Source: Saccoglossus kowalevskii
Lineage: Eukaryota > Hemichordata > Enteropneusta > Harrimaniidae
NCBI RefSeq assembly: GCF_000003605.2
Contig: NW_003151264.1
Location: 126,069-190,068, forward strand
DNA length: 64,000 nt
Direction: 5' to 3'
Of the stretch, positions 49,901 to 64,000 are shown piece by piece (position 1 is the stretch's first letter; every line of letters starts with the position of its first letter). Below the pieces are notes generated by a model. The model searched no databases. It saw nothing but the letters and a program-made list of their open reading frames with translations, and had not been told where the DNA came from. A program made the translations under genes and the position numbers.

Positions 49901-52900
49901 AAATCAGTTACAATCTGTAATTTCAGCATACCAATTATAGATTGCGGTTTCATTCTTTTATTTCTTATGTTTTACAGACTTTGTATTCAGAGTTGATATC
50001 GGAGAGTGTTCCTGTTGGTACATTTGTTGTCACAGTTTCAGCAATAGATTACGACAAAGGAATCAATGCAGAAATTACATATATCATTGAAGGGAATGGT
50101 ATGGAGGTTTTTAGCATGAATCCCAAAACAGGTATGACATGAGCATATTTCAATTTTGATGTCAGGGCAGTGTTGGTTGCTGCATATAGTATATTGTATA
50201 TTTTCTATCAGTTACTTGTTTTCAATACAAATATGTGTGGGCATTATTCATTATGATCTACTTGCCTTTGCCCATGAAATGACACGACACGAGTGTCCCT
50301 GAATTTGATCTGATTTCTGCTTACCCCAGAGTGGTATCTCCCAGAATATGCTAAGCAGCCTTGAAGTCATCCTTTTTAAAGTCGGATGCAATCAAAATGT
50401 TGATTTCCATTCATAACTGCCTGTTTTCCAAAGCAATCCAACTAGTTCATTACATTGCATGTTTTCTTGCTCATTGAATACATGATAAAAGCACATCCAA
50501 TATGTGAGCTCCATTTTGCTTGTCTATCTCTAGGTGTTCTGACTACAGCATCAGTTTTAGATAGAGAGATCAAACCTGTTTATAGTCTCAGTGTGACAGC
50601 GACTGATGGTGGTGGTAGATCATGTACAACGGAGATATCTATTAGCCTTACTGATGTCAATGACAATCCACCTCAGTTTACACAGAAGATATTCCGTGAA
50701 TGGTTTTCTGAGAAGACTGCAGTCAATTCATTATTGACCAGAGTACTGGCCACTGATCCAGACACAGGTATTTACATTTACTCTTTGTCACATGTATTTC
50801 ATGACATGTTTCAAATACTAGCCATTTCAGATGTACTAATTCTAAATTATTCACAAATACTGGTTTGACATGAAATACACACCATCAATTCTGCCTAAAG
50901 TTTTCTCAACTCAAATAATTAAATCTTAAGTCATGTGTTGTCTGTTACAGGTATGAATCGTCAAGTGAAGTATTCCTTTGTTGACTCTGCCCGTGGTGTG
51001 TTTGATATTGATAAAGATTCTGGCATCATTAGTCTTTCCAAAGAACTAGATAGAGAAGTACAAGACTTCTATAATCTGACTGTAAGAGCTACTGATAGTG
51101 GGACACCAAAACTCAGTTCTGTGGCATATCTAGAAATCTTTGTACTTGACGAGGATGATAATCCACCCGAGTTTGAATTCCGTGATTACTACGCTACTGT
51201 GTCTGAAGATGTGCCTGTCGGTCATAGAGTTATTTCAGTACTTGCTACGAGTAAAGATATTGGTGTCAATGCAGAGATAACATACAGAATTACTGGTGGC
51301 AATGAACATGGCAAGTTCCGTATTGATCCCAAGAATGGTAAGTGATACTTATATTCTATGAAAAAAACAGAACTGAGACAGGTGTTCGGTTTTTAGGAGT
51401 AAGCAAGTAAGCAAGTCTGATGAGAAATGACTGGGAGAAAGCCGTTTGTGTTTAATGTGCTGGTTTACTCAATACATGATTTGTTGAACTCCTTTCAAAC
51501 CACAGACAGAAATTCACTATTGAGGTGATCAAATTGTCCTATTACATGGAAACCCACTGTTATCTTTAGAAACACTGAGTGGACAATGTTAGCTGTAATG
51601 ACATTTTCTGTAATGTTGATAAACAGTTCTATATCAGTTCAGTATCTACCAAGAAGTCCATTATATTTAAAATGGGTCATGTCATGTGTAAAATACCATT
51701 TTGTAATATGCTAATGTTTCTAAATATGATGTATTTTTTCTCCCATAGGTGTTATCACAGTGGTTGAACCTTTGGATTATGAAATGGCCACTGACTATTA
51801 TCTGACTGTGCAGGCTGTTGATGGTGGTGACCAACCACAACATGATCTAACCACAGTTAATATTAATGTCACAGACGCCAATGACAATTCACCAATATTC
51901 AACCAGCAGATCTATAGTACCGATATCAATGAAGCAGCACAAGTTGGCGATAGTGTGTTGCAGGTAACTAAGCAATTTGTATTTTCCCAGTATACTGTGT
52001 TGTGATATTAGAGTACTTTAGTAGTGTGAATTTACCTAATGCTTGGACTTTCTTGTGCGTTGGACTGAATTTAGTTCACATTTGAATGAATCAAGAAATT
52101 TGGTTTGTATTCTAGGTGATAGCCACAGATGCCGATAGTGGATTCAATGGTGATGTCATTTATACTATACAACGTGGAGATAGATTGAATCAATTCCACA
52201 TTGGCAGTAAAAGTGGTCTCATTAGTATTACATCAGAGTTGGACAGAGAGCAGGTGAGTGCTTTTTCTCTTCTCAATAAATGAACTGTGAAGCGAATAGC
52301 GACATTTTCTGAGATTGATTGCTCATAGCCTGCAGATAAACTCAACCAATAACTGAAATTAAGCTAGAAAAACACTCCCAGCAAGTTTTGTTTTGTGATT
52401 ATTCCTGACTCGACTATATGTATGAATTACTTGAATGTGTGTTTAAATGGAACATTTTATCTTTGAGTTAGTATTAATGATAACTCTCTCTTTGTATACA
52501 TAGATGTCAGCATACACATTGACAATAAGAGCCAGTGATCAGGGCCATGATCCACAGTTTACTGATGTAACCATACAGATAAGAGTCTCGGACATCAATG
52601 ACAATCCACCAAGATTTTCACAAGATAACTACACTGTCATTGCACAGGTAAGTCATTCCAGCTATCTACATATATGGGTTATAACTGACATTCAGTCTCA
52701 GGTATGAGACTTCTACTGATTCTAACTTCCTTCATTCAAAATTTATATTACTATTGCCAAGAATGAATATTCTTGGTTGGTTGCAAAAAAAAAGTGACTG
52801 TTGTTCATTACATAAAATGTATTGCAGCTTGCTGTCATTAAGAGCCTCGCAACAAGATTACAATTCAAAGCCAAGATCTCCTGGGTAAATCATTATCAGT

Positions 52901-55900
52901 TTGTTGAGAATGTTCCTGTTATTGACACATGGTTATTTGTATTGTGTTACAGGAGGATACGGAAATCAATGCACCATTGCAGCAGTTCTTCATTACTGAC
53001 CTTGACGCTCCTCCCAACGGTTCACCGTTCAAGATTGAAATAGTCGGTGGGAACGAGGGCAATGAATTTCGTATCAGTCGTGACAGCATTCTACGACCTA
53101 TGATCAGATTTAACCAAGGGCAGAAAGACAATTACATATTGAAAGTCAGAGTAACTGACAGCGGCACACCAGCCATGTGGTCTGAAGCACATGTGGAAGT
53201 CAAAGTTATAATATCTAAACATCCACCTGTGGTTTCCAGTCCTATGGAAGTCACTATCAACTCGTATCAAGATGACTTCCCTGGTGGGGTTATTGGTATG
53301 ATACATGCTGTAGATAATGATGAATATGACACTCTGACATATGCCTTAGTCTCAAATAATGGCCATCTGTTTATGGTTAATTCTAATGATGGTATGATCA
53401 TAGCATTGCCCGATCTTGATATTGGCTTCTATATCCTGAATATCAGCGTCTCGGATAATAAGCATATCTCATATGGTGAAGTGCGTGTTAATGTAGTCAT
53501 GGTAACACAGGATACCCTTGAAAACAGTCTCACCATTCGCTTCAGTGGAATTAGCCCAGAAGTCTTCCTGGAGGGTTACTATCGTATCTTTACCCGTACG
53601 CTTAAGAACATGCTGTTGTCAGTCCAGCCAGATGATATACAAATGGTCAGTTTACAGGAGACAGACTTTGATAGTGGTGACCTGGACGTCTTATTTGCTG
53701 TGGAGAAATCGCCAAATACATACTACAAACCTAAGCCACTGGTTCGGAAAATCAATGACAGCATTGCTTCGCTTGAAGAAAGAATGGGAGTGTCAGTAGC
53801 TGAAATATTCACATCTGTTTGCCTACTTGATACATGTGATAAAACAACACGATGTAAAGACAGTCTTACTTTAGATCAGTCAACCATTGCTGCGGTGTAT
53901 TCAACAAGGACCAGCTTTGTGTCTGCCAAACATGTCAGGTCATACACTTGTGTATGCAAGGAAAAGAGTAAGTAAACTATTGCATTAAGTTTTGCTGAAG
54001 AGAATCTCTTTTTTGCTCTGCTTTCTCTGTCTGACTCTTTGAGTGCCAAACTGTTGTTACCATCCACACTGTGCCAGTTCATTCTAATTTATTTGTGGAC
54101 AATAATTACTTTAGTTGCTATTATTATATGTATTTGTATGATTATGTATATGAATGAACATTCAAAATAATGACCATACACATCACTTTTGTTTTTGTAG
54201 GCGACAGTTGTGAGGAACCAACAACTGAAGAACCGGGTAATGCGTGTGATAATGATCCCTGTCCAGAACACATGATTTGTTTACCAGCTGGTACTATAGA
54301 CTACAGCTGTGTCTGTCCAGATAATAGCGTGGATGATGACTGTGTTGGTAAGTCTGTCTATACAACCACTATAAGAGCATTGTGGTCATGTGATGGTGTT
54401 CTGATGATGACTGTACGTACAGAAGGTCTAAAAATCGGTGCATTGTGGGACAACACCTTTTGTGCTGTGTTGTTCATTACACATCTAATATGGTCTGTGC
54501 AAATTGTATTTAACTCCTTTTCCACTTTTGAAATGCTACTTTTGTCCCTCACAAAAATGAATAATTTTTCCCAATTTGCGCAAAAAATGATTATAGAAAA
54601 ATACTTAAAAATGGGCAATATTTGTCACTAAAATTTTGAGAGGAAAAAATGATGACCATCAAAGTGTAATGTTAATTTTTTTTCCAGATCCTAGATTCCG
54701 CCCTGTTAGTTTCAGTGGGTCCAGTTATATTCATTATAACAACCTGGTGTTGGATACTACATCAACACGTGTCTCTGCTAAAGTTAGAACTATGAAATCT
54801 CATGGTAACATTATGTATGGTACTGGTGACTATGATTACAGTATTCTGGAGGTAAGTACTGTTAATTTACTATTAGCTGTTTATGTTATTAGTAAAGTAT
54901 GAATAGTTTATTGTTAGCAACCTCAATTATTGTATTGTAAATTATGATGAATACTTGCTCTACTCATTCAGCAGAACAACTGGGCTAATGAGTATATAAA
55001 GAAGTTGTAGCGAGAATAACAATTGTGTCATTCAGAAGAAAACAAGAATGTTTATAGTTACCTGGATTGATTTAACTTATTACATGCGATAGAGCCTTTA
55101 AAACAGTGCCAATCACATGTGAAATCAAACGTGTCAGCCACTTAATCATGCTCTGTACCATTTCTATTTCTAGATTGAAAATGGTTTGCTGCAGTATCGT
55201 TTCCAGTGTGGTAGCGGTGAAGGACTTGTCCAGATAGTACAGAAAATAGACGATGGTCAATGGCATGACGTTAGTGTACATCGAAGAGGCAATAGTGCGA
55301 AATTAGTACTTGATAATCAGTATGTCGAAAATGGTGATGCACCTGGCGATAAACGAGAACTCAACTTAGATGATATCTTTTTTGGAGCTGAAGTTGAAAG
55401 TGATGCACGTCGTAGACGAGATCCCATTTCTCAGTACGGGAGTATCAGCAATGGGCTTGATGGTTGTATGAGTAATTTGAATTTGAATGGCGAAAGATTA
55501 CCAACGTCCGGTGATGACGTGCAATCGAATGGTGTTGGCGAGTGTCCGTACAGTATTAGAAGTGCTTGTCTTAGTAGTCCGTGCGTGAATGGCGCGACAT
55601 GCTTGGATATTGATGGCACCTTTCAATGCAATTGCATGATGAATTGGTTTGGTGATCGCTGTCAATTTACATCGCCATGTGGACCGAGCCCATGTAGGAA
55701 TGGTGGTACGTGCATCAATGAGAAAACAGACTTCCGCTGTGAATGTCCCGAAGGACTGTATGGTAAAACTTGTACAAATTACTGTATTCCAAATCCATGC
55801 TTGCATGGCGGTTTGTGTATTGAGAGTGATGATGGTCCCATCTGTGAGTGTCGTGGCTTCACTGGACCTTATTGTAACGAAGACATCAACGAATGTCTGG

Positions 55901-58900
55901 ATAATCCATGCAATGGTGGGATGTGTACAAATACTCCTGGAGGTTTCACCTGTAACTGTACTATCGATAGACAAGGGCCGGACTGTAATGAAGTAAGCGC
56001 ATTCTCCCCTCATATCACAACATCCAACTTCCTCATTACGTGGCAGGAAATAGTTGGTATTATCGCCGCCCTGCTGGGGTTGACTCTGCTAGTCATCTTC
56101 TTTGTCGCATGTCGAAAATACAGACGTAGGAAGAATTATAAGGGGAAGAAGAGGCAAACTAACTTGAATGACAGCCTGACACGTGATGCCAATACATTGA
56201 TGTTACATCGCATGGACAATCTTGGAGGAGATAAACGTGATAGCAAATTATCTAATCTGGAAGTTAACTTTCAACCAAGTAATAACATGCCTCCTGAGAT
56301 CCCGAATAGACCAACCTCATACACACCAAGTAATCATAATTCATTAAACAACCTTGACAGTGATCGTAACTATGATGAAAATGATCAGAATGCTTATCAA
56401 GGTCAACCAGTTAGTCAGCCACCAACACTGGGTCCAATGCCACCCTCCAACTCAGCATCTGATAGTGACTCTATTGCAAAGCCTCCATGGGATTTTAATG
56501 AGACGACACCACCAAATGTGACTGGCACTGAGAACTACGATAACAGTAAGTCTCATCTTAATGCAATTCTATACACATATGTCACCAAAATCATGCTAGA
56601 AAAGTGGCCAACATTCTCTGTCTTCATTTGGAAATCCTTAAAAGTGAGCAGGGATTGGGTTAACCCCATATTGCTTTCATGAATCCTCAATATCGAAGAC
56701 CCCTGTTTTGTACAATAAAGACACAGCGTATATCATCTTTATTTTGGCATGAGACTCACACAATCCTGAAATTGAGTAACTATTTCTATCAAAGTATTAT
56801 TGATGACTGGATCGTAAGGTCAATTGTTGTGACATTCAATGTTCAGAGTCTTCATCTGATGCAAAAATATATATTAAACATCACCTGCTAAAAACTGATG
56901 ATGTGTTAACTCTAGCTTCAAACATGTATACTATTTCCCCTATTTTTATTTCTTTTTTGGAATGGTGTAGACCATTTGATGTATCTATGTTTTACTTTCC
57001 CAGTGTGTAATAAATTAAATGACCCTGATGCCAACAATGTACCAAAGAATGTAGTGAGTGAAGAGACTCCTGGCTACAGACAGCGAGATGGAACTAATAC
57101 TAACTACAGTTCATTGAGTTCATTGCAGTCAGAAAATGATGAAGATATGTTACCAGGTAAAATATTCCTCAGTTCTAGACATTATAACGTGAAGTAATTA
57201 TTGAGTCTGTGTTACCCCCTCAGCTAATAGGGTTTGAAATAGGAATTGCCAAAATAACAGATTGGTCTCAGTATGTCAATGTTATTATTTATTTCTGATC
57301 ATTAGTTTTCAGACAGTATATAGTTGATTACCCATGATGAATCAAATCCACTAAATCAATTAAACACATTGCGCTTGAGTTAGTGAAAGATTTTGTTCGA
57401 GAGAGCAAACCTACTGGAATATAAATTTTTTTTTTTTTCAAATTGAAAACCCTTCCAAAATGTAGGATATATTTATGGTTTAAATTAGCGTGGCTCTTGG
57501 CTACACAGGAAAGTTGAAAGTAATTTTTACAACCAATTTCAAACCCTGGTTGAGGCTGATATTAATTTCCCATTTTCAAATGTATTTTTTCCCCCCAAGA
57601 CTGGTAGTAATAGCTGTATCTTAATGTATTGTATATCTTATGTATGTATGTGTAATTTGTTATAAGACCACATTGGTCTCTGTGTTATAATGCATTGTCT
57701 GGTGAATACATTTTAATATATAATGTTGTGTATTATATGTGGTCTTAATTTGTTTTCTGGTTTCTTTACGTCTCTGTAATTATTCAGTCATTTGTGGGAT
57801 GTCCAATGTGAAAAGGAAAAGTATTGTGTTTTCTATGTCTACATCACATATGTGCATGTTTTTCATCACTGTTTTCTTGCTTTACTTTATGATATTATCC
57901 TAGATGTGCTGTGCTGTGTTTCAAAAAAAAAAAAAAAAAACACTAACTCATTGCAATTAACTTTTGTTGTCCAGCAACTGCAGATCAAAAGTCTGACTCT
58001 GGCAAAGCCAAACCCAAGTCTTCTCTGAGTCTTAAACTGTCAAAGTGTGATAAAAACACATCAACGTACAAAGACGCATCTCCATCCTCCGTGAAGTGTG
58101 TCCGTTTCAATATGACGCCTAAAGTTACAAACTTTGTAATTGAAAGCCCTGGGTCTGAGCAGAGCATCCCAGTAGAATCAGAATATGAGAAGGCTACTAA
58201 TTTGATGTATTTTGATCAAACTGAGGAGGAGGAGGAGGGTTCAACTGAGCTTGCTACAAATACTGATCAAATTTGTAATATTGACCACACAAATAACAAT
58301 GCTATGCAAAATAATGTAGCACTAAATTTGAATGAACACAGTAATGTAGATTTAGATAATTTAGAAAACTCTGGCACCGCAGCCGCTTGCTATGAACCCT
58401 CAGTAGTAGAGAATAAAGCTAGTGTTACTAACCTCAAAACTGATGAATCACAAAACGATCTAAAAACGCCTAATTCCTTACCGCCACCACCAACAACATG
58501 GGATTCTGATTTGTCTGATGTAGAGTCAGTTAGATCAGACGCTGAATTGACACAGAGAGATGCAGGGATGGCTGATGCTGAATGTCAGACAGATGATGAT
58601 ATGGACGTAGCAGAACATACATTCCTCGGGGCTGCAGAGGAGCCTCTGGAAACCACCACAGAATTCCACGATACTCACCAGACTGTGTTCATTCATCGAC
58701 CCAACAAGCCTAAAGCACATAAGAAACGTAAAAACCCTGGTTAGCATCTTTCTATCTTCGCTTTTCTTTACCTTCTTCCTCTTATGGTTTCTGGTGCAGT
58801 TTTCAAATCATGATTCTATCTTTTACTGGGTAATCCCTGCTTACAACACCACCAACCTTTGGTGCATGCTTCATTAACTGTCGTATATATTACAATAACA

Positions 58901-61353
58901 AACACCAACAACTGCTGTAAATGTAAACTTGAATGATAATAATTAAGTAATACCCCAGTCACTTCTGAAGCAAATCCGAGAATATCCGATGTATTTTTGT
59001 TTTTAAAAGTCAGTGTGATTATGTTATTCATTATAAGTTGTTTACTCAATAAATCTCTTCTTATGAATACATTTGAATTGTTTGACTGCCCTCATGTGTA
59101 GCCTTTTTCAGTAACTGTTGAGATCTGGTGTGACGTTGATTCTACCACATGAGCATGAACAAAACGCATGCACTTACGTAAATGTCTATGGTTGAAATAA
59201 TTCAATAAATGCAATACGATATTTAAATTGCTATGCGTTAGCTGCACATAAAACGTGATCATTTTAAAATTCTTTTTTTGTGTCCTTGTTGCATTTATAA
59301 ATTTTGACACTGAGAACACCGGTGCCAGTTGTCAATTCATCGCATCAACATGTGTGATCTCAAGATCTCGCAATTACTTGAAAAAACAAAGATTTGCTAC
59401 ATGTAAAACAACATACCGTTACTAACACTCTTAACTCTCTCCTTCTTTTCCTATTGCTGCCATGCTGCTTTGATCCTAAAAAAACATGTTATTTTTGCAA
59501 ATAAAACACATAAATATAAACAGCACCCACCCAGCCGCCGAAAGATGTAGATGGGTATACTAACAGCGGTAACCCAGTGTGGGAACTGTAATAGTGTGAG
59601 CGGGTAAAAGTATTTACTCTATGTGTAATTCAATGTCATACTTATATATATATTTATGTAATCAATCCATATCCGTAGATTGTATCACACAGCATGTTAT
59701 TGTTTAAGATATTATTTTTTTCCTTTTTTCTAGGAATGTCAGTAATATTTATGTTTTCATTAACATCCATCTATGCATGCATCCATGCATTTGCAGACTT
59801 TTCTTTGCAGCTAGGATGGGACGTCGTTGTTGGTGTAATAGGAGATTTCTTTTGTTGATTTTGTCTTGCAAGCTTTTATAAATGTTTATGCACAGTGTTT
59901 TTTTGTATATCTGTTATGTTTCTGATGTTTACCATTATTAAGGCTTCTGTAATTTGCTTTTATATTTCCCTATTTGACACACGATGAGAAATAGTTCATA
60001 AGATTAAGTCAACAATTTCCTTTCTCTGTTCATAGTTGTATTAGCTTTAGTTCTCTTAATTTTTTGCCTCACTTGGTGAGGTAGACAACAAAAAATGAGA
60101 AAACATGAGAAACATAACAGATGTTACTTTCATCATTATTGTCTTCAACCATGTGAACATTGTCAGTTGTTTCCATGATCGGTATTGTGAAGGACATAAG
60201 TCTTGCTTATATGATCAACATTGTAAAGAAGTGTTACGTCAGGACATCAGACTGTACAAATAGTAGTTTTCATTTCATCGTATCAGTATTTCATTGGTGA
60301 AAAGCATGTCAAAGCTTGTTTGTTTTTTTATCTAACGAGGACACATGGTTGAAGTTTCCGTAAATCACATGAATATTGGAATTTTTGAAATTTATTTATT
60401 TAAAAAATAAACTGGTCATATGTCAAATTCATCAAACCATTTTAAAAAATGGCTTCCAGTGTGCTATTAGCATATTGAAAGTCATAATGGTTTAGTTTCT
60501 ACTTCTGTAATTCAAGTGATGGTCTAAAAAAATGGCATTTCAAGAAGATTTCCAATTTCATGTTGATGATGTTTGTTTATATGATAATGATAAAAAAATG
60601 TTTCTTGGATAATTTATGCATGCTTCCACATTCAATCTTGACGTTTATTCATCACGTGTCTTCATTCCAGGCTACCACTGGGACTGCACAGACTGGATGC
60701 CACCAGAAAACCTGCCAGATATTTCCGAATTACCACAGTATGAGGTACCAGACTCTCCAACAAATAGTAACGGGACAAATACAAATGATTTCATTATTGA
60801 AGATGAGTATGTAGGAGAGGATACAGACTATCCTGAGGACCCGAGTGATATTCAGTACCCTCATAACATAGATGACTTTCAAAGACAATTAGAGAACTAT
60901 CCTCCTCCTCCTCCACCGCCACCTCCCCCTCAACATCCAGAGGAAGGGAGTCAATATGGTAGCTATCAGCACAAAGAAAACTTATACAAGCAACATCCCA
61001 GCCATTATTTACCACATCATAGTTATAGTAATTCACAGACATCCCAGGATATGTACGGTAGTGGACTAGACATGTACGGCCCTGCACCACGTTACCACAA
61101 TAACGTAGCAGGACCACAAGATGAAATTCCTATGGCCGATGAAGATGAGTACGACGATGGTAGCGAATACAATGCGGACTGTGAGCACTCAGTGTCCAAC
61201 CTGGACAACCTGTCAATCTCTGTGTACTCCACAAACGCTTCATGCTCAGACGTTTCGGCTCTTTACGAGCCGGATTCCGAGATGGGTTTAAGTGATTATG
61301 AGAGTGGAGATGACAACCTTTCCCATCTGTCCACTTTGCACACTGAGGTTTGA
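10860..61353 (+). CDS. FAT1-like: FAT1/2/3-type atypical cadherin, 5'-truncated by window, about 25 constitutive exons
   Basis: Giant single-pass membrane protocadherin. Fat cadherins mediate cell contact and act on actin organisation, planar polarity and growth control. Joining exons 10860-11174 through 60671-61353 at GT-AG sites keeps one open frame: 3,538 residues plus a partial first glycine. Order: end of one cadherin repeat, 24 full repeats (residues 1 to about 2550), Fat-specific region, EGF1 (about 2714-2748), one LamG (about 2750-2910), EGF2-5 (about 2915-3080), transmembrane helix 3096-3116, cytoplasmic tail 3117-3538 ending HTEV. One LamG and five EGFs fit FAT1/2/3 rather than FAT4 (two LamG); no GPS/7TM excludes Celsr. 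Family members are about 4,500 residues with 34 repeats, so roughly nine repeats and the signal peptide lie upstream. As recalled, the order and wording follow human FAT1/FAT3 collinearly. No start codon or promoter is in the window. Whether this is a pre-duplication single orthologue cannot be told here. Confidence 0.96.
18371..18410 (+). repeat. Short dispersed repeat, second copy of 2754-2795
   Basis: Both sites share a near-identical run of about 40 bp that includes 'gtc(t/c)gggaagca(g/a)aatatgg'. They sit in two different introns in the same orientation. Too short to classify. Confidence 0.5.
18515..18660 (+). repeat. Local duplication, copy 1
   Basis: Shares tgccttgttatctaccatc, catggaacaag-type and 'gcagacagtggccctaggct' blocks in the same order with 19288-19500. 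The second copy has an extra insertion of about 60 bp in the middle. Non-coding. Confidence 0.65.
19288..19500 (+). repeat. Local duplication, copy 2
   Basis: Direct-repeat partner of 18515-18660, about 0.8 kb away. The 3' block (gcagacagtggccctaggct, then gacatttagataa) is almost identical. Could be two copies of a dispersed element rather than a segmental duplication. Confidence 0.65.
21289..21350 (+). CDS. FAT1-like: Exon 2: 62-base exon inside a cadherin repeat
   Basis: Phase 1 in, phase 0 out; acceptor tttctttcag, donor gtatgc. Translates as [20 protein letters not shown] followed by E, which joins exon 1 (..DENTG) to exon 3 (ITVSDNG..) without a break. It carries the LDRE calcium-ligand motif. 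Very small and isolated by introns of 10.1 and 15.2 kb. Confidence 0.93.
22779..22963. mobile_element. MITE-like element, family 2
   Basis: 185 bp with terminal inverted repeats of about 24 bp: left taccgtaaaatctgtattag, right end reverse-complemented tactgtaaaatgcttattaa. 'aatagaagt' words recur inside. No open frame. Related but diverged elements appear at 25964-26100 and 26863-26989. Confidence 0.6.
25964..26100. mobile_element. Probable family 2 MITE, degraded
   Basis: Left end tactgtatttactctattag and an interior like that of 26863-26989 (taatagac, gtgcac/tgcactt words). The right end is only a weak inverted match, so boundaries are approximate. Confidence 0.4.
26441..26653 (+). mobile_element. 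MITE-like element, family 1, copy B
   Basis: 213 bp, same orientation and ends as copy A at 683-894 (left tactgtaaatactttatttt, right gaaatattttacagta). The interior shares gatttttgacaagtt, aatgtaaaatata and 'gcgaaaattaatt' blocks. Confidence 0.75.
26863..26989. mobile_element. Short family 2 MITE-like element
   Basis: 127 bp between tactgtatttgtc at 26863 and gagcaaatacagt ending 26989, which are inverted copies of each other. No coding capacity. Confidence 0.45.
29960..30780 (+). repeat. Second cluster of the 'tggccgactgg'-type repeat with CG/TG-rich leader
   Basis: Begins with a leader (gtctccgttcggacgcagtc) and a (TG/CG)n tract at 30011-30080. Degenerate units follow with cores near 30190, 30390, 30527 and 30657 (for example caaaatggctgactggtagc). 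Same orientation as the 9905-10680 cluster. The open frames on both strands here come from the simple repeat. Confidence 0.7.
31954..31969. repeat. Poly-C run, 16 bases
   Basis: Uninterrupted C run in intron 2. Likely length-variable, and could be an assembly-sensitive spot. Confidence 0.85.
36588..36905 (+). CDS. FAT1-like: Exon 3: cadherin repeat, calcium motif DDLNDNDP
   Basis: 106 codons, phase 0 at both ends; acceptor ttttcag, donor gtaagt. Encodes the end of one repeat ([15 protein letters not shown]) and most of the next ([23 protein letters not shown]) up to VYDLL. The 5' and 3' introns cut the same strand position (SL-E/ITV and DLL/LEV), so this is again one repeat in permuted form. 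Confidence 0.95.
36906..37470 (+). other. Intron 3, 565 bp
   Basis: Ordinary AT-rich intron, donor gtaagt, acceptor ctttgtttag. Nothing else seen. Confidence 0.85.
37471..37696 (+). CDS. FAT1-like: Exon 4: cadherin repeat end with degenerate linker and next repeat start
   Basis: 75 codons plus one base (phase 0 in, 1 out; donor gtaagt after ATA A). It finishes the exon 3 repeat with VVDNG, but the usual D-x-N-D-N-x-P linker is replaced by [11 protein letters not shown], so calcium ligands are missing there. It then starts a repeat containing HVQVMESDP. Human FAT1 has a similarly ligand-free linker at this position, as recalled. Confidence 0.93.
37697..38290 (+). other. Intron 4, 594 bp, with AG microsatellite
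   Basis: Donor gtaagt, acceptor gtatttacag. Contains an (AG)27 tract at 37847-37900; otherwise unremarkable. Confidence 0.85.
37847..37900. repeat. (AG)n microsatellite, about 27 units
   Basis: Perfect AG dinucleotide run, 54 bases, 150 bp downstream of the exon 4 donor. It creates an artefactual RE-repeat open frame. Confidence 0.95.
38291..38430 (+). CDS. FAT1-like: Exon 5: interior of a divergent cadherin repeat
   Basis: 2 + 138 bases, phase 1 in, 0 out; donor gtaaac. Codes [20 protein letters not shown] and then [19 protein letters not shown] Trp-Glu pair replaces the usual R-E in LDRE, as expected for a weak-calcium repeat. Joins exon 6 [13 protein letters not shown]. Confidence 0.93.
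38727..39213 (+). CDS. FAT1-like: Exon 6: two cadherin repeats (DTNDNRP, DSNDHKP)
   Basis: 162 codons plus one base; phase 0 in, 1 out; acceptor ttgcag, donor gtaagt. Encodes linker DTNDNRP, a whole repeat ([44 protein letters not shown]) and the first half of the next up to LVYSIESG. The preceding 296-bp intron 5 shows nothing. Confidence 0.95.
40041..40178. repeat. Minisatellite, about 24-bp period
   Basis: About five imperfect units built on ccataggtgttacacatgtt. Intron 6. Confidence 0.7.
40280..40460 (+). repeat. Solo truncated copy of 'tggccgactgg' repeat
   Basis: Contains cagattcaaaatggccgact followed by a 'gccatatgtctaa' block, matching units at 9905-10680 and 29960-30780 in the same orientation. 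Confidence 0.55.
42132..42156. repeat. (CCT)8 microsatellite
   Basis: Pure CCT repeat in intron 6, 630 bp upstream of the exon 7 acceptor. Confidence 0.85.
42789..44293 (+). CDS. FAT1-like: Exon 7: large exon with five cadherin repeat linkers
   Basis: 501 codons, phase 1 in, 0 out; acceptor ccacccag, donor gtgaga. Linkers in order: TISNNAP (degenerate), DKNDNAP, DVNDSPP, KQTSESG (degenerate) and DINDNAP. Marker strings [33 protein letters not shown] and LPYFAVVQV match the FAT1 repeat order as I recall it. Ends in DVVRK just before the V-E-A-I-D strand of the next exon. Longest exon of the window. Confidence 0.96.
44294..44961 (+). other. Intron 7, 668 bp, carrying a MITE
   Basis: A family 1 MITE occupies 44606-44817; the rest is AT-rich with no coding signal. 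Acceptor gtcttactcag. Confidence 0.85.
44606..44817 (-). mobile_element. MITE-like element, family 1, copy C (inverted)
   Basis: 212 bp, opposite orientation to copies A and B. It ends gcgaaaataaagtattccac then agta and begins tactgtagaatactttattt. Sits wholly within a short intron without disrupting splice sites. Confidence 0.75.
44962..45139 (+). CDS. FAT1-like: Exon 8: cadherin repeat body
   Basis: 59 codons plus one base, phase 0 in, 1 out; donor gtagga. Codes [20 protein letters not shown], then HFDVNSNTG, an altered LDRE (ELDPIVQN) and ATDKG split by the intron. Joins the repeat begun in exon 7. Confidence 0.94.
45140..45613 (+). other. Intron 8, 474 bp
   Basis: AT-rich, no coding or repeat signal seen. 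Acceptor cttcctag. Confidence 0.85.
45614..45835 (+). CDS. FAT1-like: Exon 9: repeat end with ligand-free linker MNKAMP and next repeat start
   Basis: Phase 1-1, 222 bases; donor gtatgt. The linker [19 protein letters not shown] lacks the D-x-N-D-N-x-P calcium ligands; human FAT1 carries an almost identical MNKAMP-type linker there, as recalled. Ends ..FAIDHNSG at the recurring x-x-G split-glycine position. The following intron 9 (184 bp) shows nothing. Confidence 0.94.
46020..46649 (+). CDS. FAT1-like: Exon 10: two cadherin linkers (DINDIPP, DLNDNPP)
   Basis: Phase 1-1, 630 bases; acceptor cttttacag, donor gtatac. Encodes the end of one repeat ([22 protein letters not shown]), linker DINDIPP, one whole repeat ([41 protein letters not shown]), linker DLNDNPP, and the start of the next to VIDSATG. 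Confidence 0.95.
46650..46958 (+). other. Intron 10, 309 bp
   Basis: Open for 43 codons after the donor, but this is unlike cadherin. Acceptor tatttcag. Nothing else seen. Confidence 0.85.
46959..47264 (+). CDS. FAT1-like: Exon 11: cadherin repeat with ligand-free linker VNHYSP
   Basis: Phase 1-1, 306 bases; donor gtaagt. Lacks LDRE ([10 protein letters not shown] instead) and has linker VNHYSPWF in place of D-x-N-D-N-x-P. It then starts a normal repeat ([27 protein letters not shown]) to FTIDPESG. Human FAT1 has a similarly abnormal repeat here, as recalled. Confidence 0.94.
47265..47582 (+). other. Intron 11, 318 bp
   Basis: AT-rich, nothing notable. Acceptor gattttctatag. Confidence 0.85.
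47583..47942 (+). CDS. FAT1-like: Exon 12: cadherin linker DHNDNAP and next repeat body
   Basis: Phase 1-1, 360 bases; donor gtgaga. Codes [20 protein letters not shown] then DGGG, linker [11 protein letters not shown], and a repeat reading [16 protein letters not shown] with FTIDLLSG in place of F-x-I-D-x-x-T-G. Its last codon is split G/AA (Glu). Confidence 0.94.
47943..48490 (+). other. Intron 12, 548 bp
   Basis: The 48075-48265 part has several imperfect 'gttactgt(g/a)act' words in both orientations; otherwise unremarkable. Acceptor actatttcag. Confidence 0.75.
48491..49554 (+). CDS. FAT1-like: Exon 13: four cadherin linkers (GPNEYPP, DSNDNAP, DYNDSPP, DANDNSP)
   Basis: 2 + 1062 bases, phase 1 in, 0 out; donor gtcagt. 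The first linker ([11 protein letters not shown]) is ligand-free; the next three are DSNDNAP, DYNDSPP and DANDNSP. Two complete LDRE-bearing repeats are seen ([22 protein letters not shown]). It ends NSPQCQQ; the C next to the linker is also present in FAT1, as recalled. Confidence 0.96.
49555..49977 (+). other. Intron 13, 423 bp
   Basis: AT-rich; 'cacatctccagtagaat' recalls family 2 MITE wording but no element can be bounded. Acceptor atgttttacag. Confidence 0.8.
49978..50131 (+). CDS. FAT1-like: Exon 14: first half of a cadherin repeat
   Basis: 51 codons plus one base, phase 0 in, 1 out; donor gtatga. Codes [20 protein letters not shown], then [14 protein letters not shown] and FSMNPKTG. 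Confidence 0.93.
50132..50533 (+). other. Intron 14, 402 bp
   Basis: Nothing beyond AT-rich sequence. Acceptor tgtctatctctag. Confidence 0.85.
50534..50767 (+). CDS. FAT1-like: Exon 15: cadherin repeat end, linker DVNDNPP
   Basis: Phase 1-1, 234 bases; donor gtattt. [20 protein letters not shown] (the GGGRxC signature is shared with FAT1, as recalled), linker DVNDNPPQF and the next repeat to ATDPDTG. The following intron 15 (183 bp) shows nothing. Confidence 0.94.
50951..51337 (+). CDS. FAT1-like: Exon 16: cadherin repeat, linker DEDDNPP
   Basis: Phase 1-1, 387 bases; acceptor ctgttacag, donor gtaagt. [33 protein letters not shown], linker DEDDNPPEF (D instead of N at the ND position), next repeat [20 protein letters not shown] to FRIDPKNG. 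Confidence 0.95.
51338..51748 (+). other. Intron 16, 411 bp
   Basis: No coding or repeat signal. Acceptor tttctcccatag. Confidence 0.85.
51749..51963 (+). CDS. FAT1-like: Exon 17: cadherin repeat end, linker DANDNSP
   Basis: Phase 1 in, 0 out, 215 bases; donor gtaact. [20 protein letters not shown], linker DANDNSPIF, then [13 protein letters not shown]. The donor cuts just before V-x-A-x-D, the same place as the exon 7/8 junction. The following intron 17 is 152 bp and shows nothing. Confidence 0.94.
52116..52253 (+). CDS. FAT1-like: Exon 18: cadherin repeat core, 46 codons
   Basis: Phase 0-0; acceptor tattctag, donor gtgagt. [28 protein letters not shown], ending LDREQ. The following intron 18 is 250 bp with no signal. 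Confidence 0.94.
52504..52647 (+). CDS. FAT1-like: Exon 19: cadherin repeat end, linker DINDNPP
   Basis: 48 codons, phase 0-0; acceptor tatacatag, donor gtaagt. [17 protein letters not shown] (the ATG is internal), linker [19 protein letters not shown]. Confidence 0.94.
52648..52952 (+). other. Intron 19, 305 bp
   Basis: Contains, in another frame at about 52883-52930, a short cadherin-like string ([14 protein letters not shown]) with no usable splice sites. Acceptor attgtgttacag. Confidence 0.75.
52953..53967 (+). CDS. FAT1-like: Exon 20: last two cadherin repeats and Fat-specific membrane-proximal region
   Basis: 338 codons plus one base, phase 0 in, 1 out; donor gtaagt. The penultimate repeat (EDTEIN.., ILRPMIRF) ends in the ligand-free linker ISKHPPV. 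The last repeat has [20 protein letters not shown]. From about 53510 a non-cadherin region follows ([29 protein letters not shown], then a cysteine group [14 protein letters not shown] and YTCVCKEK) that is typical of Fat proteins between the cadherins and the first EGF. Confidence 0.96.
54201..54347 (+). CDS. FAT1-like: Exon 21: EGF-like domain 1
   Basis: Phase 1-1, 147 bases; acceptor tttttgtag, donor gtaagt. After [14 protein letters not shown] comes an EGF with six cysteines (CDNDPC, MIC, YSCVC, DDDC). Symmetric single-domain exon upstream of LamG, as in FAT1. The preceding intron 20 is 233 bp and shows nothing. Confidence 0.94.
54348..54687 (+). other. Intron 21, 340 bp
   Basis: The reading frame stays open past the donor by chance (about 90 codons), but the translation is not EGF- or LamG-like. 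Acceptor tttttttccag. Confidence 0.85.
54688..54851 (+). CDS. FAT1-like: Exon 22: laminin-G domain, first part
   Basis: Phase 1 in, 0 out, 164 bases; donor gtaagt. [36 protein letters not shown]: the LamG start pattern (hydrophobic-F-x-G-x-S-Y, R-T-x-x-x-x-G-x-I-M-Y). Confidence 0.94.
54852..55173 (+). other. Intron 22, 322 bp
   Basis: No coding or repeat signal. Acceptor tttctatttctag. Confidence 0.85.
55174..56545 (+). CDS. FAT1-like: Exon 23: LamG end, EGF2-5, transmembrane helix, juxtamembrane tail
   Basis: 457 codons plus one base, phase 0 in, 1 out; donor gtaagt. LamG completes with [30 protein letters not shown] and [14 protein letters not shown] basic RRRR run at 55408-55419 lies in a LamG loop. 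Four EGFs follow, each with six cysteines; the last begins DINEC with GGFTC, a calcium-binding type. The membrane helix is encoded by 56050-56112 ([20 protein letters not shown] then C), with a stop-transfer stretch [15 protein letters not shown]. The tail has [37 protein letters not shown] and WDF, all recognisable FAT1/FAT3 tail motifs. Confidence 0.97.
56546..57003 (+). other. Intron 23, 458 bp
   Basis: Frame open for 45 codons beyond the donor, then stop; no family similarity, so treated as intron. Acceptor tttactttcccag. Confidence 0.85.
57004..57156 (+). CDS. FAT1-like: Exon 24: cytoplasmic tail, SLSSLQSEN motif
   Basis: Phase 1-1, 153 bases; donor gtaaaa. Codes [12 protein letters not shown], then [18 protein letters not shown]. 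The SLSS(F/L)QSE string precedes YHWD directly in FAT1, which marks exon 60671-61353 as the constitutive partner of this exon. Confidence 0.93.
57157..57974 (+). other. Intron 24, 818 bp
   Basis: AT-rich, with an 18-base A run at 57923-57940, then a branch-point-like cactaac and a pyrimidine-rich tract before the ttgtccag acceptor. No other exon seen. Confidence 0.8.
57975..58744 (+). CDS. FAT1-like: Exon 25: large alternative (cassette or terminal) cytoplasmic exon
   Basis: The frame is open in phase 1 for 255 codons plus the stop at 58742-58744. Read as a cassette it ends at CCT G/gttagc (58739; 765 bases, weak donor) or AAA C/gtaaaa (58727; 753 bases). Both are phase 1 and join the last exon in frame. 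Read through, it stops one codon after CCT and gives a tail ending KRKNPG without the PDZ ligand. Composition is acidic and Ser/Asn-rich, as in intrinsically disordered tails. Visible motifs: KCVRF (fits the RVxF phosphatase-1 docking pattern), [29 protein letters not shown] (casein kinase 2-like) and a basic HKKRK end. I recognise no family. The sustained frame, good acceptor and codon-like composition argue for coding; use in mRNA is unproven. Confidence 0.75.
58745..60670 (+). other. Intron 25, 1.9 kb, with candidate mini-exon
   Basis: Mostly AT-rich and non-coding, except a GC-richer island at 59524-59591 described separately. Two aataaa words (59048-59053, 59204-59209) could serve a transcript ending in exon 25. 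The final acceptor is gtcttcattccag. Confidence 0.75.
59524..59591 (+). CDS. FAT1-like: Candidate alternative mini-exon of the cytoplasmic tail
   Basis: After an ag at 59522-59523, the phase 1 frame reads [16 protein letters not shown] donor GCG/gtaacc at 59568 gives a 45-base phase 1-1 exon that joins the YHWD exon in frame. Without that donor the frame runs seven more codons (..NPVWEL) to a TAA at 59589-59591, an alternative C-terminus of hydrophobic-x-hydrophobic type. The island is clearly GC-richer than the surrounding intron. The pyrimidine tract before the acceptor is poor, so this is a proposal. Confidence 0.45.
60671..61353 (+). CDS. FAT1-like: Exon 26: terminal cytoplasmic exon with C-terminal PDZ ligand HTEV
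   Basis: 2 + 681 bases including TGA; acceptor cttcattccag. Begins [37 protein letters not shown], matching the FAT1 YHWD..DWMP..LPDI..YEV block. Next are an acidic stretch, ten consecutive prolines after Tyr (60901-60930, a possible EVH1/SH3/WW ligand; FAT1 binds Ena/VASP through its tail), a Tyr/His-rich section, [25 protein letters not shown] and C-terminal LHTEV. HTEV is a class I PDZ ligand, identical to the human FAT1 end as recalled. Confidence 0.97.
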
Positions 61354-61538
61354 TTCACAGAGTATTGTAGATTCCTACCAAATTCTTACTCATTTACATA
61401 CAGGATATTTTAACTACGGTAGATAAAACTTAATGTTTTATGGATATTTGTCTTCTTGTTCTTCCAATGTGATGTCTCTACAGAATTTATTGTATATTGA
61501 GTTTTATGGATATTTGTTATATGTTGTCTTCTCATGTC

Positions 61539-61544
61539 AATAAA
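61539..61544 (+). terminator. FAT1-like: Polyadenylation signal AATAAA (proximal)
   Basis: Canonical hexamer 186 bases after the stop codon, followed by an A-rich stretch rather than a strong GT-rich element. Confidence 0.5.
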
Positions 61545-61928
61545 GTGAAAAAAGAAATTTTTGCTCTCAAATTGATTACACAGGAGATTGCCTTAAATGT
61601 TGAGAAGAGTTTCAATTGCCAAAAAAATCTTCCACATACTTAAGTGGTCTTTTCTTTTAATAGCTAGAATATCTTTCCCAGTTCAAACTTTTTTTTTTAA
61701 ATTTTAAGAACTTTTAGATCACAATTTAATTGGAAGATTTTAACCAATTGATTATTTAATTGAGAAAACCCCTTTTCCCAAAAATAGATTTCTACTCCCT
61801 CATTATTTACTTCAACTGTAAGTATGTATATATCTATATATGAAGGTAAAAATTGAACACTTGTCCCCTATTTTATTTTGTGCTTCCTTCCCTTGGATTA
61901 TAGTGTGATGTTCCAATCACTATGCATT

Positions 61929-61934
61929 AATAAA
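61929..61934 (+). terminator. FAT1-like: Polyadenylation signal AATAAA (second)
   Basis: Hexamer within cattaataaagac; downstream sequence is moderately GT-rich. Confidence 0.4.
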
Positions 61935-62250
61935 GACTATGCCATTGTATTAGAGGGAGCTGAAGCTGACAATTTGTCTCTGTTGACTGAGACTAGATTT
62001 GTTTTCTAAGGTGCTTAAATTCAATTTACTGTTACAAGTTATTTTTTTTAATTAATTTTTTCTGTCAGATGTATATGGAAACATATTTACTGCTCCAAAC
62101 TATGTTCAGGTGACTGTGAAATGCTACCCACATTGTACAGTGTCTTCTATTAAAAAAAATATGCATTCAGTGTTGGACTTTTATTTTGATGAACAGCGTG
62201 TTTACAATTGCAAATAGTAGGGGTGATATCTCATTTTAAGATCAGTTTGC

Positions 62251-62407
62251 AATTTGAGTATCCTTTCACAGTTCCCTAGGGGACCCAAATTTGAGTAGCC
62301 TTTCACAGTTTCCTAGGGGACCCAAATTTGAGTAGCCTTTCACAGTTTCCTAGGGGGACCTGAATTTCAGTAGCCTTTCACAGTTTCCTCGGGGACCTGA
62401 ATTTGAG
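62251..62407. repeat. 37-bp tandem repeat, four copies
   Basis: Units start at 62251, 62288, 62325 and 62363, with a partial fifth at 62400. Each carries agtagcctttcacagtttcc followed by taggggacc and a (c/t)(c/g)aaattt-type spacing. Lies between candidate polyadenylation sites, so it may be transcribed in the longer 3' UTR. Confidence 0.9.
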
Positions 62408-62728
62408 GAGTATTTAATATCTATAGCATTCACAGTATGATGTAATTTATTATAAACTTATAAAAAAACCTAAATGTATATGTGAAAGGTGTAAAACTAG
62501 CAATAGTTGTTTTATTTTTAGTGTTTCTAAGGCTTTTTTTTTGTTGAAACTTGACTTCAGAAGTCAAGTGCTGTAAAGTGTATCCGCTGCCTTTTGTGTA
62601 CAGAGATTTTATGTATCCGTAGTTGCTTTGTTATATATGTAATTAGTGAGTAGACAGCCCAGATGAGAAGAAATGCATTTTAAATATTTTAATTAAGGAG
62701 TATACCAAAATGAAAAAAAAATGTGTCC

Positions 62729-62734
62729 AATAAA
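62729..62734 (+). terminator. FAT1-like: Polyadenylation signal AATAAA (third)
   Basis: Hexamer in ccaataaatt, followed by A-rich sequence and then ttttggtgtg. Confidence 0.35.
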
Positions 62735-62884
62735 TTTAAAAAAAAGAAAATTGCCATTTTGGTGTGAAATAGATTTCCAATTTTCTTATTATCATGTTTA
62801 CTCCGTCAAATTTTATTGTGAAACATCTCTAGATAAAATTCTTCATCTGTGTTTTATTTACAGTTAGCGTGCTTGACAGAACTC

Positions 62885-62890
62885 AATAAA
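62885..62890 (+). terminator. FAT1-like: Polyadenylation signal AATAAA (distal)
   Basis: Hexamer followed within 30 bases by ttttattttgatgtttc, a plausible T/GT-rich downstream element. Confidence 0.45.
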
Positions 62891-63076
62891 ATAGTTTCAA
62901 TGAAAAGTTTTATTTTGATGTTTCACTCAAAAAACTATTCTACAAAATCCTTATTTTTAATTTTTAGCAGTTCTGAGATTGTTGAGTGAACAAAAGAGAA
63001 GTGATTCTGTAAATTTCAATGTTTAAATTACTTTTCACGTTATTGAAGTTATTTTGTCATTATTTTTTGTATCTTC

Positions 63077-63082
63077 AATAAA
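63077..63082 (+). terminator. FAT1-like: Polyadenylation signal AATAAA (most distal)
   Basis: Hexamer in ttcaataaaac; about 35 bases later comes tgctgtgtttattt, a good GT-rich element. Confidence 0.45.
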
Positions 63083-63100
63083 ACTTATAAAGTTGTATTT

Positions 63101-64000
63101 AAAAACAAACAAAAATGCTGTGTTTATTTTATCAGCTCTCTTGTCAAAAGCACAAATGTATGCCTCATTTCAAAAACCAGTGGCATTCATAGAAATGAAA
63201 TTTCATATATGTTCTTTATGACAAATGCAAGATCCAGGTTTCTGGTAAGTCATACTTGTATCTCAAGGTACAATATTCTCTTACTATAGTTTGAATTTCT
63301 TTTGTGTATTCACAAATTTCAACCCAAATTTGAAATACCGGTGAACTGAATATACCGGTATACAATATTGGAACATTTCTCAATAATTTACAGTCACTAA
63401 TTTCCATATTGTTTAGAAAACTTCCAAAGATAGCACATTTTGGAATTAGGTAATCTGTGATATGTTTTATGAACAGAATAGACTGGAACATTCTCAATGG
63501 CTTGTTGATATTGGCATGGAAAGATTTACAGATTTCTGCATAATAATGAGATAATTTGCATAATAGTTTACCACATTTTCATGTCAAATTGTGTAGTCAA
63601 ACTAGAGATGCATTCTTGGAAAGGTATGATCAATCCGTTTAGCTTTGGGGACAAATTCACTTTTGATAACTTGGGCATTGTTTTCTAAAACATTTCTTAT
63701 TGCTAATTGTAGCATTCCTTCCTCTTATATAAGAATGAAAAGGGGTACAAAAGTTGGCCACTATTTATACGATACATTTTCAGTATACACGATAGATTAT
63801 GCCTGGTTACATTCTCAAGACGAGTCCAGTCGGCTAAAAAAGGTTAAGGTAAACTTTGTCACAAAATACTTTCAAGAATGTCTTAGAAATCAGTTTGGAA
63901 ATCAATGTGCAGAAATAAAGCTGATTAGCTCATAGATAAAATGATGAACCTTACTATGTGATGAACCCAATTAGTGCAGTGTGACAAGGATGACCAATTG
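63101..64000. other. Downstream flank, unclassified
   Basis: Two open frames, 63216-63497 on the - strand (93 codons) and 63645-63935 on the + strand (96 codons), match no family I recognise and lack codon or splice support. They could be part of a neighbouring gene or an old transposon. No promoter or RNA gene is apparent. Confidence 0.5.

Follow-up and report, generated by a model that had tools for sequence, protein, structure and literature searches.

The window (the whole 64-kb stretch of DNA that was analysed; GC 34.6%) carries on its + strand the 3' portion of a gene for a Fat1/2/3-type cadherin. Proteins of the Fat family set the orientation of cells and guide growth. We set 19 exons of this gene by hand, the model being incomplete before 42789, and joined the last seven for a spliced translation. 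The joined exons encode cadherin repeats, an EGF domain, a laminin G domain (LamG), four further EGF domains, one transmembrane segment and an intracellular tail of 423 residues, the domain content of the Fat1/2/3 type. Pfam recognised EGF (4 stretches) and Laminin_G in 55174-56547; the cadherin motifs (DxNDNxP) and one EGF upstream were read by eye in the translation. The tail in the spliced translation contains a YHWD-type motif and ends in HTEV, both of which are features of FAT1 tails. A unit of 37-38 nt is repeated imperfectly in four tandem copies at 62235-62415, past the stop codon and thus within or beyond the probable 3' UTR.

The second last and the last exon of the model are separated by an intron of 3.5 kb (57156 to 60671), in which the candidate exon is located (Table 1). 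The initial annotation had proposed here a symmetric, phase 1-1 exon of 255 codons that is open throughout, and both direct reading and a script confirmed this for 57975-58739. From stop to stop the frame measures 265 codons. In simulated 64-kb sequences (n=60) that matched the gene's introns in trinucleotide composition, the longest stop-free run had a mean of 149 codons and a maximum of 211. Employing codon log-odds trained on the 19 hand-delimited Fat exons versus the introns, we obtained 0.252 bits/codon for the candidate frame and negative values for the other five frames. In leave-one-out scoring the Fat exons gave 0.106-0.462 bits/codon, 6 of the 19 falling below the candidate; none of the 73 intron stretches that stay open for 40 codons or more reached its score (maximum 0.178). 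In 40-codon windows, the coding signal began and stopped with the candidate exon and was confined to it within that intron, with a neutral score over the first ~35 and the last ~20 codons. Probably, 57975-58739 is a real coding exon with Fat-like codon use. The two best intron stretches (0.178 and 0.175) were both from the intron after 51963 (51964-52952), where stop-free stretches of 55 and 67 codons gave the top coding scores of all intron stretches and the spliced protein seemingly lacks part of one cadherin repeat; the hand-made gene model therefore probably misses an exon at that place.

Table 1. Features in and around the candidate exon of the Fat cadherin gene (positions in the window)
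Feature	Position	Strand	Basis
Fat exon encoding the end of LamG, EGF repeats, the transmembrane segment and the start of the intracellular tail; donor AACA/gtaagt	55174..56545	+	Pfam, gene model
Fat tail exon, 153 nt, phase 1-1, donor CCAG/gtaaaa	57004..57156	+	reading, gene model, codon statistics
Branch-point-like motif CTAAC, A 28 nt upstream of AG	57943..57947	+	motif match
Candidate exon, 765 nt (255 codons), phase 1-1	57975..58739	+	open frame, codon statistics, splice scores, one genome match
KCVRF, RVxF-like; candidate site for docking of protein phosphatase 1 (PP1)	58094..58108	+	pattern match
Basic end of the exon frame, 15 residues	58697..58741	+	translation
Donor-like CCTG/gttagc, phase 1	58740..58745	+	score 5.27
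TAG ending the frame if the donor is unused	58742..58744	+	reading, script
CU-rich tract, 43 nt, 86% pyrimidine	58747..58789	+	base composition
AATAAA, 304 nt past the TAG; possible poly(A) signal if the exon serves as a last exon	59048..59053	+	motif match; weak
Last Fat exon, ...HTEV, stop TGA	60671..61353	+	gene model; one match in genome

Splice sites were scored with matrices made from the gene's own sites. The acceptor, ttttgttgtccag/CA at 57974/57975, had been described as good. Its score of 1.64 does not bear this out: 18 of the 19 Fat acceptors (leave-one-out) scored higher, which places it among the weakest of the gene, and 14.7% of 3353 other AGs reached at least this value. The CTAAC upstream resembles the branch-point consensus. 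For the donor, the initial annotation had named gttagc or gtaaaa and considered it atypical. The former has T at +3, found in none of the 18 Fat donors, so that part of the description stands; the two alternatives are not equal, however, since gttagc at 58740 gave a fair score of 5.27 (lower values in 2 of 18 Fat donors; reached by 4.3% of 4044 other GTs), whereas AAAC/gtaaaa at 58728, also in phase 1, gave a poor one of 1.86 (reached by 19.6% of other GTs) and was set aside. Compared with the other sites of the gene, acceptor and donor are both weak, as is usual for optional exons. Directly behind the donor there is a CU-rich tract, one of only two this rich in pyrimidines on the + strand of the window; the same place behind the 18 other Fat donors contains 42-70% pyrimidine. 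Such a tract fits U- or CU-rich splicing regulation of the PTB or TIA1 type.

Two other acceptor-like sites were observed in this intron. Within 58741-58800, the AG at 58799 behind the CU-rich tract scored 5.28, higher than the candidate exon's own acceptor; splicing from 57156 to 58800 would add only VFKS before a stop, a possible short truncated tail with the same AATAAA at 59048. At 59734, atttttttccttttttctag/GAATG scored 12.8, above all 19 Fat acceptors (leave-one-out), with no coding signal behind it.

Depending on the use of the candidate exon, three tails can be written. Joining 57156 directly to 60671 keeps a gap-free frame as far as HTEV, in agreement with the earlier proposal that skipping gives the FAT1-type order (423 residues). 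Use of the exon as a cassette would lengthen the tail to 678 residues, and use as a last exon would give 452. The TAG directly follows the codon that spans the junction at 58740. The TAG one codon past the donor and the idea of one exon with two possible outcomes, insertion or stop, were both part of the initial annotation and are supported.

The segment encoded by the exon contains 46 D/E against 24 K/R (pI 4.6). It had been called acidic, which is correct for the whole and incorrect for both ends, which are basic. By charge and hydropathy it falls on the disordered side of the dividing line and is probably disordered. Pfam returned 0 families for this segment, and a search of the PDB returned two matches at chance level (E 0.23 and 1.7). 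RVxF patterns, strict or loose, describe a docking motif for PP1. KCVRF fits both and is a candidate PP1-docking site; in 20000 shuffles, the strict pattern occurred in 1.2% and the loose one in 8.3%. By pattern match, the skip-form tail has no RVxF-like motif, and neither the exon nor the skip tail has a WIRS motif.

Splicing in this region of the tail is known from vertebrates. As described in PMC5082931, mouse Fat3 carries between its exons 24 and 25 two optional ones, 24.1 of 56 nt and 24.2 of 40 nt, which together insert 32 residues into a DNXYH motif common to Fat3 and Fat1; the insert separates a conserved tyrosine from the Kif5-binding segment and blocks binding of Kif5B. Inserts of Fat1 also enter inside the DNXYH motif, and of the splice forms Fat1(+12) and Fat1(+32) (Braun et al. 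2007, as cited there), Fat1(+12) ends early by a premature stop (PMC5082931). According to PMC9130956, the splice forms of the Fat1 tail vary between tissues and with confluence. The statement in the initial annotation that vertebrate FAT1 and FAT3 tails are alternatively spliced here with much smaller inserts is borne out by the 32-residue insert of mouse Fat3, the matching one of Fat1 and the Fat1 form that ends early (PMC5082931).

In the gene studied here, the junction is G/YHWD in phase 1, with the conserved Tyr-His directly behind the insertion point. Judged by position and flanking motif, and as far as the description of the mouse genes in PMC5082931 goes, this is the same junction as the vertebrate FAT1/FAT3 splice switch. 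Within that limit, the candidate exon resembles mouse Fat3 24.1/24.2 in its place in the tail, after a serine- and Gln-rich acidic segment and before Tyr-His, and in being a predicted in-frame insert that would separate this segment from the tyrosine. It differs from the account of mouse Fat3 in being one exon of 765 nt and 255 residues instead of two small exons encoding 32, and in having a weak donor with a stop directly behind; the likeness is one of position, not of exon letters. With Fat1(+12) and Fat1(+32), as that source presents them, it shares the junction and the pairing of one inserting with one early-ending form (here predicted from the DNA). The early stop of Fat1 is described as arising from use of one of two small exons, whereas here it would come after 256 new residues. 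Like alternative or hybrid last exons generally, this exon could either splice on or end the transcript; unlike them, its dual use is so far a possibility read from the letters. The strict Kif5-ID pattern Q(S/T)XXSXQXXXXD(D/G)XXY together with DNXYH had no match in this tail; a relaxed Kif5-ID pattern, written after viewing the sequence, gave one match of 17 residues. Literature searches, including those on microexons of Fat1, on nuclear occurrence of its intracellular domain and on the evolution of Fat cadherins, listed no paper on this exon.

Taken as a whole, we consider it probable (about 0.68) that the stretch 57975-58739 is a genuine coding exon of a cadherin of the Fat1/2/3 type, alternatively used at the junction of the vertebrate FAT1/FAT3 switch so as to insert a segment or stop the protein. 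This reading is supported by the length and codon use of the frame, the phase 1-1 that both candidate donors give and the gap-free tail obtained by skipping, as well as by the single match in the genome and by the entry of the mouse Fat3 and Fat1 inserts inside the DNXYH motif (PMC5082931). Frame, coding statistics, phases, splice-site scores and position were directly observed. From these we infer the alternative use of the exon, its regulation and both of its functions. Optional use is favoured by the weakness of both splice sites relative to the gene's other sites, and regulated splicing by the CU-rich tract behind the donor (86% versus at most 70% at the 18 others). Weighed against this reading were the frequency with which other AGs match the acceptor, the missing strict Kif5-ID/DNXYH match and the occurrence of the loose RVxF pattern in shuffles.

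On this basis, the weak sites on both sides would cause the exon to be skipped by default, giving the tail that ends in HTEV, and the exon would be included in some cells or stages. Inclusion would place ~255 residues, probably disordered, between a 12-residue segment and YHWD. On the model of mouse Fat3, a kinesin-binding-like segment may thus be separated from its tyrosine, and the destination of the protein may change; inclusion would also add the candidate PP1-docking site KCVRF. Where the weak donor at 58740 is unused, the TAG would close the frame; given a functional AATAAA at 59048, the protein would then lack HTEV and end in the new sequence.

The exon may be an internal cassette or an alternative last exon. 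In the latter case the exon would extend from 57975 to about 59070, with the TAG as the true stop, the AATAAA at 59048 as poly(A) signal and the GT at 58740 there by chance, and the 227-residue end of the tail with HTEV would be swapped for a different end of 256 residues. T at +3 occurs in no Fat donor (0/18), nor is any of them followed by a stop within one codon (0/18), and GGT-TAG at the end of a last exon may therefore explain the GT. The AATAAA is followed by GT-rich sequence (59% G/T, 4 TGT/GTG) and is the best of four in this part of the intron, and PMC5082931 describes a form of Fat1 that stops prematurely at this junction. However, AATAAA occurs in introns here at 1.5 per kb, so one within 304 nt is unremarkable. 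Moreover, in-phase GTs of this quality are uncommon: of 3502 noncoding stops, just 102 (2.9%) have one within the preceding 10 codons, and of 2985 10-codon windows taken from Fat coding sequence, 131 (4.4%) contain one. Of the 18 Fat donors, 16 score as high as gttagc and 4 are followed by a stop within 10 codons. Since a donor-like GT this good near the stop would be a 3-4% coincidence, we rank the cassette, with somewhat better than even odds, above the last exon, which we regard as a serious but clearly less probable alternative. Use in both ways, as cassette and as last exon, is possible from these signals.

A constitutive exon, present in every transcript of the species, with the skip form merely reproducing a vertebrate-like ancestral order, would also account for a coding exon in phase; the weak acceptor and donor, the stop at the donor and the alternative nature of this junction in vertebrates (as far as PMC5082931 describes it) make this quite improbable.

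In the 572-Mb genome (4830 contigs), the exon had one match by DNA and one by protein, the best candidates being scored, and no second allelic copy was found; within 55000-64000, no long repeat is shared with the exon. The single match gives no sign of a transposon, and a transposon or repeat origin was rejected. Among viral and prokaryote sequences, 4 and 17 pattern matches, respectively, were found, and tblastn confirmed 0 of either; these collections hold no animals, so the negative result there says nothing on conservation. Origin as a duplicate of the last exon was likewise rejected: the best local alignment (EHS..LDNL..S) scored 52, a level reached by 4.9% of 1000 shuffles (blastp E 0.10) and, against the whole tail, by 29.2% of shuffles. 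That the frame is no Fat exon at all (a frame open by chance, the remnant of a former exon, a piece of a transposon or a nested gene) would agree with the lack of Pfam families, the chance-level PDB matches and the absence of relatives in viral or prokaryote contigs, and is very unlikely given a length beyond the simulation, Fat-like codon use, a stop-free frame in matching phase and the single match in the genome.

Returning to the alternatively used coding exon, its size and content are probably new, the splice switch at this place being already known in vertebrates. If the exon is used, an invertebrate Fat tail would be switched at the vertebrate point with a much larger cargo; the switch would date to before vertebrates, with its position kept rather than its content, and the gene would offer a compact test of what the parts of the tail do. 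More speculatively, and in our view rather unlikely, splicing at a single fixed place in the Fat1/2/3 tail may have served as a switch since before vertebrates arose and may have been kept while its cargo was exchanged, vertebrates inserting a 32-residue spacer and this lineage 255 residues with a PP1-docking motif, the same hybrid exon being able to end the protein without HTEV. According to PMC10734073, Fat1 is apparently absent in the hemichordate S. kowalevskii; the gene in the window, if from a hemichordate, would bear on that claim.

A mitochondrial contig of 17,037 bp was also inspected. COX1 (1501-2841) is encoded on one strand and most other protein genes on the other, and the order COX3-Gly-ND3-Arg-ND4L-ND4-His-Ser-ND5 was read, with genes named by eye. 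TGA is mostly read as W; across nine aligned COX1 places, ATA falls opposite I, V or L and in no case opposite M, and it looks like Ile. Gene order and codon reading point to a deuterostome, perhaps a hemichordate. In nine untrimmed frames, AGA and AGG are rare (6 and 1) and AAA is common (48), and the anticodon of tRNA-Lys is TTT. Common AAA and a tRNA-Lys with TTT fit poorly with the mitochondria of acorn worms.
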